The notes beneath the pieces were generated by a model. It had not been told where the DNA came from, did not search any database, and saw only the letters and a program-made list of their open reading frames with translations. A stretch of DNA of 64,000 nucleotides, from the NCBI GenBank assembly GCA_025963725.1, contig JAOQAE010000002.1, forward strand, positions 372,001-436,000. Reading direction: 5' to 3'. This DNA comes from Bacteroidota bacterium (GTDB lineage Bacteria > Bacteroidota > Bacteroidia > 2-12-FULL-35-15). The translations under genes and the position numbers were made by a program. This document shows positions 59,500-61,436 of this stretch, in pieces. Positions within the stretch are counted from its first letter, which is position 1. Every line of letters begins with the position of its first letter.

Positions 59500-59892
59500 T
59501 TACAGGCAGATTGCTTCCAACAATTCCTTCACTCTTCTTTCAATCTCATCCCTAACCTTATTGAATTCAGAAGGCTCCATGTTCTTCGGGTCATCCAGCT
59601 TCCAGTCGTCGCGGTGCTCAGCCATTATGAACGGGCATTCATCCCCGCAGCCCATTGTAATTGCGTAATCATATTTTACAGCAGGGATCTCATCCAGCGA
59701 TTTTGAGTGGTGTGTGCCCAGGTCATAACCCAGCTCCTTCATTGCAGCAATCGCTTTCGGGTTGATCTTCCCGGAAGGGCGCGAGCCGGAGCTGTACACT
59801 TCTACTTTATCTTTTCCGTGGATGCGTGCGAAAGCTTCGGCCATCTGGCTCCGGTTGGAATTCTCCACGCAAACAAAGAGGATTTTTTTCAT
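59500..59892 (-). CDS. arsC: Arsenate reductase, low-molecular-weight phosphatase fold
   Basis: 130 residues. The P-loop is C8-V-E-N-S-N-R14 (CX5R) followed by SQMAEAF, with a second cysteine pair at C82 and C86 (MGCGDEC). This fits thioredoxin-coupled ArsC, which reduces arsenate to arsenite. The start overlaps the aquaporin stop by 4 bases. Placement in an arsR operon supports the arsenic reading over a protein tyrosine phosphatase. Confidence 0.88.
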   Translation of the reverse strand: MKKILFVCVENSNRSQMAEAFARIHGKDKVEVYSSGSRPSGKINPKAIAAMKELGYDLGTHHSKSLDEIPAVKYDYAITMGCGDECPFIMAEHRDDWKLDDPKNMEPSEFNKVRDEIERRVKELLEAICL

Positions 59893-60527
59893 GCTTCCTT
59901 TTTATAGACGTAATTAAATATAAAGACTGCCGCCAGCGCCCCGATGAATGGGCCGGTAAGATAGATCCACAGCAGCTCCGTGTTGCTGTTCATCACCGCA
60001 GGCGCAAAGGAACGCACCGGGTTCATTGATCCCCCGCAGTATGGCCCTCCGACATAAATTCCGAACGCAACATACGCGCCGATGATCCATGCATCATACT
60101 TCAGCTTCATACGCGCGCAGATGAGGATCACCGTCATCAGAAAAAAAGTGATCACGAACTCGAACGAGAAGGCCCAGTAGGAGCTGATCGATGGTAATGT
60201 TTCTCCAAGCGTGCTGCTGTCGGGAAAGATCCTTCTCAGCAGGAAGCTCGCAAGAAGCGCGCCCGCAGCCTGCGCCAGCAGGTAAGGGATAATGTCTTTC
60301 CGGAAGAACTTGCCACCCGCCGCAAGTGAAAGCGTAACGGCGGGATTCATGTGGGCTCCGCTCCATTTGCCTAAAAAGATGATCATTAGTGAAACGATCA
60401 ATCCCGTTATTAAGGAGATCCCGGCAAGCGTTACTTTCCCATTGCTCACATGATCCACGATCACAGACCCTGTTCCGATGAACACAAGGAAAAAAGTAGA
60501 AATGAATTCGGCTATGCTTTTTTTCAT
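59889..60527 (-). CDS. Aquaglyceroporin-type channel of the ars operon
   Basis: 212 residues from the ATG at 60527; an upstream frame overlaps the DUF6428 gene. Six spans and two half-helix motifs, NPA at 61-63 (AHMNPAV) and NPV at 169-171 (SMNPVRSF), the second with Val in place of Ala; R172 follows as the selectivity Arg. Channels in ars operons (AqpS type) let arsenite leave the cell down its gradient. No ArsB or Acr3 pump is present, so this would be the arsenite exit. Confidence 0.88.
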   Translation of the reverse strand: MKKSIAEFISTFFLVFIGTGSVIVDHVSNGKVTLAGISLITGLIVSLMIIFLGKWSGAHMNPAVTLSLAAGGKFFRKDIIPYLLAQAAGALLASFLLRRIFPDSSTLGETLPSISSYWAFSFEFVITFFLMTVILICARMKLKYDAWIIGAYVAFGIYVGGPYCGGSMNPVRSFAPAVMNSNTELLWIYLTGPFIGALAAVFIFNYVYKKEA

Positions 60528-60538
60528 ACGGCTGTTTT

Positions 60539-61012
60539 TTAGCAGCAGCCGCCACCAGGCGTGCAGCAAGCGTTTGAAGTGCTTCCCAGCTCTACAAGGT
60601 TCAGCTTTTGCTTTTCTTTCGGAGCTCCGCAGCTATCGCTTGCGAGGCAGGCGGTGTTCTTCGGCACAAGCACAAAGCCTTCATTTTTAATCTCAACACC
60701 ATACCTTCCGATGGTATTCGTCTGGTACTCCACTTCCACTTCATGATCGCCGATGCCCAACGCCTTTTCAGAAAGTGAGATGATCTTCGACAGCTTTTCG
60801 GCGGTTAAGCGGTGACCGAGGTCGTTCGCTTCCCAAAGCTGGAAGTTCACTACTTTCTCTTCGCGTACAGTGCCGCCGCAATCGATAAAGTTCTTTGTTG
60901 TGAGGCCGACTTCCGTGATGTGAAAGTGCGCGGGAACGGGATTGCCATCAGGCTGTGTGAAGCTTACGCCGCTGAGCGTGTTAAGCTGGTTTTTAAATTC
61001 AGATAGTTTCAT
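60539..61012 (-). CDS. DUF6428 protein with cysteine-rich tail
   Basis: 157 residues. The globular part (about 1-118) matches DUF6428 in my reading: MKLSEFKNQL, HFHITEVGLTTKNFIDCGG, NFQLWEANDLGHRL, and YGVEIKNEGFVL. The tail carries C122, C128, C149, C150, C156 and C157, ending ACCTPGGGCC. Located between arsR and the aquaporin gene (11-base gap), the cysteines suggest binding of arsenite or another thiophilic metal. Function is not established; the role is inference. Confidence 0.75.
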   Translation of the reverse strand: MKLSEFKNQLNTLSGVSFTQPDGNPVPAHFHITEVGLTTKNFIDCGGTVREEKVVNFQLWEANDLGHRLTAEKLSKIISLSEKALGIGDHEVEVEYQTNTIGRYGVEIKNEGFVLVPKNTACLASDSCGAPKEKQKLNLVELGSTSNACCTPGGGCC

Positions 61013-61070
61013 TTGATTAAGGATTTAGAATTGATGATTTAAAATTTATAGTAGTTTTTTAAGATCCGGA

Positions 61071-61403
61071 TCAGCAGCACTTCTTCATTGCTTCAAATTT
61101 CATGTTGAACAGCTCCGAAAAGATCGCTTTCGCATTCTTCCAGTTCTCCTTGTGGATGCAATAGCAAACCCTTGGCCCGTCGATCTCGCCCTGGATCAAA
61201 CCGGCGTTCTTTAATTCCTTGAGGTGCTGGGAGACTGTCGACTGCGACAAAGGCAGATGCTCCACGATGTCGTTGCAGATGCAGGACTTTTGTTCGGAGA
61301 GGAATTTGAGGATGGCGACGCGCGCCGGGTGCGACAATGCTTTCGCCAGCTCGCTTGCCCTGATCTCCGATTTGCTGAACTCCTGCTTTTTTGAATATGC
61401 CAT
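61071..61403 (-). CDS. arsR: ArsR-family repressor
   Basis: 110 residues, winged helix ([20 protein letters not shown], then [18 protein letters not shown]). C41-x-C43 sits in the usual metal-binding helix position (SCICNDIVE), with C80/C82 and a C-terminal CC (109-110) as further candidates. It likely leaves its operator when arsenite or antimonite binds. First gene of the four-gene minus-strand operon. Confidence 0.92.
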
Positions 61404-61418
61404 TGTTATTATATTTTA

Positions 61419-61436
61419 TATCGCAAATATACGATT
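61419..61436. promoter_or_regulatory. ArsR operator overlapping the ars promoter
   Basis: Inverted repeat TATCG-N8-CGAT(T) whose spacer is the -7 element TATATTTG on the minus strand (61424-61431), 21 bases upstream of the arsR ATG. A repressor bound here would cover the promoter. Confidence 0.6.

Follow-up and report, generated by a model that had tools for sequence, protein, structure and literature searches.

DUF6428 is a regular member of Bacteroidota ars operons, plasmid-borne ones included, as follows from locus counts and from independent plasmid annotation. Its regular membership and a Cys-rich tail that it has in common with ArsM are undescribed as far as our searches reach. The gene studied here lies in the window, i.e., the whole 64,000-nt stretch of a Bacteroidota bacterium genome that was analysed, within a four-gene operon where an aquaporin stands in for an efflux pump. 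We are inclined to regard DUF6428 as a cytosolic As(III)-binding accessory protein, i.e., a buffer or chaperone, analogous and not homologous to ArsD.

The operon and its genome

ORF calls and profile matches confirmed the minus-strand order arsR-DUF6428-aquaporin-arsC between positions 61403 and 59500 (Table 1), and in profile searches the four proteins each matched their own family over most of their length. The gene order and tight gaps claimed by the first-pass annotation are real and all four family assignments hold, with 58 nt between arsR and the DUF6428 gene, 11 nt between the latter and the channel gene, and a 4-nt overlap of the channel gene with arsC. A co-directional 4HBT thioesterase gene lies upstream of the operon and a convergent gene for a LolD-like ABC ATPase downstream.

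Table 1. Features of the ars operon in the window
Feature	Position	Strand	Description
arsR	61071..61403	-	ArsR/SmtB repressor; HTH_5 (PF01022) E 5e-16; NF033788 above cut-off
DUF6428 gene	60539..61012	-	157 aa; PF20001 E 6e-61
MIP channel gene	59889..60527	-	NIP-like; PF00230 E 4e-44
arsC	59500..59892	-	LMW-phosphatase-type arsenate reductase; LMWPc E 7e-24
Operator-like dyad ATCG-TATATTTG-CGAT	61420..61435	-	~17 nt upstream of arsR

The claimed absence of ArsB and Acr3 proved true at the locus and also across the genome, which is 97.9% complete: ArsB (PF02040), Acr3/SBF (PF01758) and ArsP (PF03773) profiles each gave 0 matches in the whole genome. Since these families are absent and the only MIP gene of the genome is that of the operon, the aquaporin in the pump's stead holds genome-wide for the three searched pump families (ArsB, Acr3/SBF and ArsP, as distinct from MFS exporters, e.g., ArsK and ArsJ). 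The search for ArsM in the genome gave weak class-I methyltransferase matches only, all below cut-off.

The ArsR protein has three conserved Cys pairs (C41-x-C43, C80-x-C82, and C109-C110). The dyad upstream of its gene occurs in the genome in one exact copy, the next best copies having two mismatches, and ATCGTA is present in 147 of the 155 arsR upstream regions of DUF6428 loci versus 8 expected in shuffles. The Bacteroidota -7 promoter box is TAnnTTTG, which we take the dyad core (61424-61431) to fit, and because of this match ArsR on the dyad should block transcription start. We infer that ArsR binds this operator-like dyad: without arsenic it would occupy the palindrome covering the promoter, with ATCGTATATTTGCGAT as its putative target, and the binding of As(OH)3 to the ArsR cysteines would release the promoter. 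A sigma-70 promoter and terminator scan gave nothing above chance, as expected for a sigma-70 consensus in a Bacteroidota host.

The ArsC protein has the CX5R loop (C8/R14) and, as in three-Cys reductases, two more redox cysteines (C82 and C86); its nearest solved relative, 3t38, has the same TMGCGDxCP stretch. The cysteine set is thus like that of thioredoxin-coupled three-Cys ArsC, but the NCBIfam equivalog cut-offs are not reached (104, 94, and 87 bits vs 158, 215, and 174). In many DUF6428 loci the short ArsC gives way to a phosphatase-like 'long ArsC' of 200-220 aa (L045:6576-7190; some 58 further ORFs resemble it), which contains CTHNSRRS as well as CSHADENCPFIPG-type stretches and scores below cut-off for both ArsC and LMWPc.

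Channel and pump at one chromosomal site

A channel within an ars operon is an already known operon type. The ars operon of Sinorhizobium meliloti contains a MIP channel, AqpS, together with a reductase (PMC6205960), and MIP channels are a recognised class of ars transporters (PMC4435449). The operon in the window is like the AqpS operon in that the MIP channel replaces ArsB/Acr3 and its gene runs in the direction of arsR and arsC, without any pump gene; it differs in that DUF6428 lies between arsR and the channel. Arsenate reduction and exit through the channel, both under ArsR control, are likely by homology and by the AqpS precedent, and we infer that the channel substrate is arsenite.

The closest solved structures of the channel are those of rice NIP2-1/Lsi1 (E 5e-30 and 1.5e-29). 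Read off the NIP2-1 alignment, its filter is T41-I157-G166-R172 and its motifs are NPA and NPV, whereas two conserved NPA motifs are reported for the MIPs of PMC4435449. The channel is AqpN/NIP-like by its two NPA-type motifs and by a filter in which LE1 is small and LE2 is Arg. With AqpN and the plant NIPs (rice Lsi1, NIP2-1), of which the last is its best solved relative, it has in common a small-residue filter suiting metalloid hydroxides, but the filter is G-S-G-R in NIP2-1/Lsi1 and T-I-G-R in this channel. Relatives also have GlpF-like channels with no ars genes beside them, and in these the filter reads W-G-[YFW]-R; in another non-ars group it is I-[AG]-G-V. The ars-linked channels fall almost wholly into one group (54/58 rows, 94/88) apart from the GlpF-like one, in a tree that leaves NIP2-1 unplaced. 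Of the four 'non-ars' rows placed in the ars-channel group, two adjoin ars-linked rows; one of these two is identical to an ars-linked row whose ars genes are found beyond the short flank.

To compare the site in sister species of the same genus, we took the stretch flanked by the thioesterase and LolD-like genes. This slot is empty in nine loci (L232, L233, L236, L238, L239, L245, L250, L251, and L254), holds arsR-DUF6428-channel in L228-L231, L234, and L248, and has a methyltransferase gene ahead of the channel in L235 and L244 (continued in L008 and L015/L141). It is occupied by arsR-DUF6428-Acr3-arsC in L240 and L242, by arsR-DUF6428 with the transporter absent in L241, L243, and L249, and by Acr3 without DUF6428 in L247, L253, and L256. 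Either channel or pump is thus found at the same genus-level site, and therefore both fill one slot. In the scanned set, the genomes of this genus whose slot has an ars-linked channel (G000, G009, G010, and G018) gave no SBF match at all; in L031, the Acr3 score exceeds the ACR3 cut-off. Among the 96 DUF6428 loci with enough flank, 43 have Acr3 alone, 22 the channel alone, one both and 30 neither (Fisher p 1.8e-6, a generous value since the loci are not phylogenetically independent). This exclusion, together with the swap at one site in the genus, supports the earlier proposal of the channel as a pump substitute.

Several ars cassettes contain, beside DUF6428, a TPMT/NodS-like class-I methyltransferase (about 205-214 aa) that is distinct from ArsM, e.g., L005:1982-2626, L008:1984-2598, L048:1758-2378, and L256; it is a candidate ars gene without assignment so far.

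Distribution and neighbourhood of DUF6428

The DUF6428 protein matches PF20001 over positions 1-155 of 155 with 205 bits, against a gathering score of 28.7. The family occurs in 27 of the 59 relatives and in 76/296 genomes across the phylum, and is absent from all 14 control genomes (14/14). The neighbour check proposed by the first-pass annotation was run, and a family located mainly away from ars genes is not what it revealed: ArsR lies within 3.5 kb of DUF6428 in 156 of 176 loci, and just seven loci are without any profiled core ars gene. In two of these seven (L203 and L216) a neighbour is equal in length and position to the ArsN1-like genes of similar loci. On plasmids of Pedobacter, Empedobacter, Hymenobacter, and Pontibacter, the NCBI annotation has arsR-DUF6428 followed by ACR3, with phosphatase/metallophosphoesterase genes. 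Genes of the metallophosphoesterase family follow ACR3 or separate it from DUF6428 in L272, L273, and L270 (Hymenobacter, Pontibacter, and Pedobacter plasmids), and the small Empedobacter falsenii plasmid p1681-tetX (L271) carries arsR-DUF6428-phosphatase-ACR3 as well as tet(X).

The first-pass annotation suggested that DUF6428 may hold trivalent arsenic or hand it over between the reductase and the channel. A role specific to the channel is not supported, because Acr3 accompanies DUF6428 more often than the aquaporin does (73 versus 45 loci), and some loci have neither; the most constant companion is ArsR. DUF6428 is also not essential, because the three same-site Acr3 cassettes mentioned above lack it. 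ArsM, with NF008823 above cut-off, also occurs near DUF6428, as do ArsN1-like acetyltransferases and ArsN2, the last scoring above cut-off in L197. ArsN1 is an arsinothricin resistance family, and loci where arsR-DUF6428 is followed only by an ArsN1-like gene (L198, which is scored, and L199 and L205, alike in size and place) suggest a link to organoarsenicals. In some loci DUF6428 has arsR alone or arsR and an acetyltransferase beside it, with no reductase or exit nearby, which speaks against a buffer or chaperone.

The constancy of ArsR, whose gene is immediately upstream on the same strand in 141/176 loci, could also mean that DUF6428 is a co-regulator that exchanges As(III) with the ArsR Cys pairs and so sets the induction threshold. 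A CC end common to both proteins (145/150 in ArsR) and the 11/96 loci whose only profiled ars genes are arsR and DUF6428 accord with such a role, but adjacency is equally explained by operon position and the sister cassettes with arsR and Acr3 run without DUF6428, so that we consider co-regulation improbable.

Conserved residues, tail and fold

Six of the seven cysteines (C45, C122, C128, C150, C156, and C157) are invariant in 108/108 close sequences, whereas C149, the first C of 'ACCTP', is conserved in 59% of them. The cysteine-rich ACCTPGGGCC tail pointed out by the first-pass annotation therefore stands as regards C150, C156, and C157, and does not as regards C149. A remote branch of 14 shorter sequences, mostly still beside ars genes, retains H31, T33, E34, D44, C45, G46, Q58, I77, E95, C122, and the terminal CC (C156 in 13/14) and has lost C128 and C150. 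Across 177 sequences, C45, C122, and C157 are invariant and C156 is so bar one, which makes arsenic-thiol handling by the conserved cysteines plausible.

A terminal CxxxxCC (spacing 2-6) ends 170 of 184 DUF6428 proteins, versus 13/176 ArsR and 13/1141 other ORFs, and none of the ArsC, Acr3 or channel proteins. About 10 of the 13 other ORFs encode ArsM and terminate in, e.g., CEPGSGCC or CCTPNSGCC. Because ArsM is unrelated to DUF6428 and acts on As(III), the occurrence of the tail on both is the best indirect support for As(III) handling by it, and the C(x)PGxGCC-type tail is possibly a transferable arsenite-binding one. ArsM proteins with a C(x)Px(x)GCC-type tail were seen in L182, L185, L186, L188, L194, L075, L111, L115, L116 (CCTPNSGCC), and L117; the literature search found no paper on vicinal Cys tails of ArsM.

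The tail also bears on the reading of the cysteines as a structural or zinc/copper site in a passenger protein without a role in arsenic handling. Such a passenger would agree with the invariance of His, Asp, and Glu and with a literature search that gave no biochemical work on DUF6428 and found no mention of it, but it is hardly credible given the phylum-wide tie to arsR, arsC, Acr3, and the aquaporin, plasmids included, and a tail common to DUF6428 and ArsM.

In the predicted model (mean pLDDT 80; most core blocks 85-94), an ordered alpha/beta core of about residues 1-120, with the element order beta-beta-alpha-beta-beta-beta, precedes a low-confidence Cys-rich arm (121-157) that ends in ACCTPGGGCC. 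In MerA, two conserved cysteines of the flexible C-terminal region deliver Hg(II) to the active site (PMC4500099), and the low-confidence arm is compatible with a flexible capture arm of this kind. The likeness in function is putative; MerA is an unrelated protein, and DUF6428 is without a flavin domain. Comparison of the model with the PDB gave no Foldseek match at E <= 0.001 and a best VIA-align Z of 3.1, and a profile search of PDB sequences gave one chance match (E 1.3). The fold thus gives no function for DUF6428, and since no known fold was matched, there is room for an enzymatic role.

The core polar residues H31, T33, E34, D44, Q58, and E95, invariant throughout the 177 sequences, the remote branch among them, look more like a catalytic or metal site and argue against a pure thiol scaffold. 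DUF6428 could then be an enzyme on an arsenical or thiol adduct, e.g., a thiol transferase or a redox partner of ArsC, with a predicted active site of H31-x-T-E34, D44-C45-G46, Q58, and E95 that the flexible CC tail would load or reduce in a MerA-like manner. The invariance (177/177) of polar residues beside C45, the flexibility of the tail in the model, the MerA precedent (PMC4500099) and the usual proximity of arsC fit an enzyme; yet the PDB comparisons found no fold or sequence relative of known activity, and DUF6428 is also present in loci without a reductase. We therefore judge an enzymatic role rather unlikely.

ArsD sequesters As(III) and hands it to ArsA (PMC2963123). ArsD and DUF6428 are alike as small Cys-rich proteins of ars operons that would work in an analogous way, but ArsD belongs to another Pfam family (PF06953), and it passes As(III) to ArsA whereas DUF6428 loci have Acr3 or a channel as the exit. 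The two families occur together in only 2/296 genomes. The assignment of DUF6428 as ArsD was rejected, the Pfam scan of the protein giving PF20001 only, and PF06953 has no match anywhere in the genome. In a check for the thioredoxin-like fold, the predicted element order of DUF6428 differed and the PDB comparison was without a clear match.

Proposed mechanism

As an As(III)-binding accessory protein, DUF6428 would act downstream of ArsC, which would reduce arsenate to As(OH)3. The core thiolates C45 and C122 and the flexible-arm pair C156-C157, usually together with C128 and C150, may capture the arsenite freed by ArsC, lower its toxicity and presumably hand it over to whichever exit the operon has. 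In the window this exit would be the NIP-like aquaporin, in the slot held by Acr3 in sister species, with arsenite leaving down its own gradient. Because a passive channel exports down a gradient only, capture by DUF6428 would here lower free As(III) and protect thiols, and would not speed export; with Acr3, DUF6428 could feed the pump.

Implications

More tentatively, DUF6428 might be the first of a new protein class that binds As(III) or processes arsenicals, perhaps an ArsA-independent Bacteroidota counterpart of ArsD serving both pump and channel, with the C(x)PGxGCC tail as a transferable arsenite-capture arm that is also present on ArsM. A family found in about a quarter of the sampled Bacteroidota genomes becomes assignable to arsenic handling, with the exact residues named. 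A bacterial-arsenic origin of NIPs is claimed in the title of Pommerrenig 2020, as cited in PMC7013980. The genus-level Acr3/aquaporin swap at one chromosomal site is a natural experiment that asks if passive channels can replace pumps, with a bearing on the AqpS model and on the origin of plant metalloid channels in bacteria.
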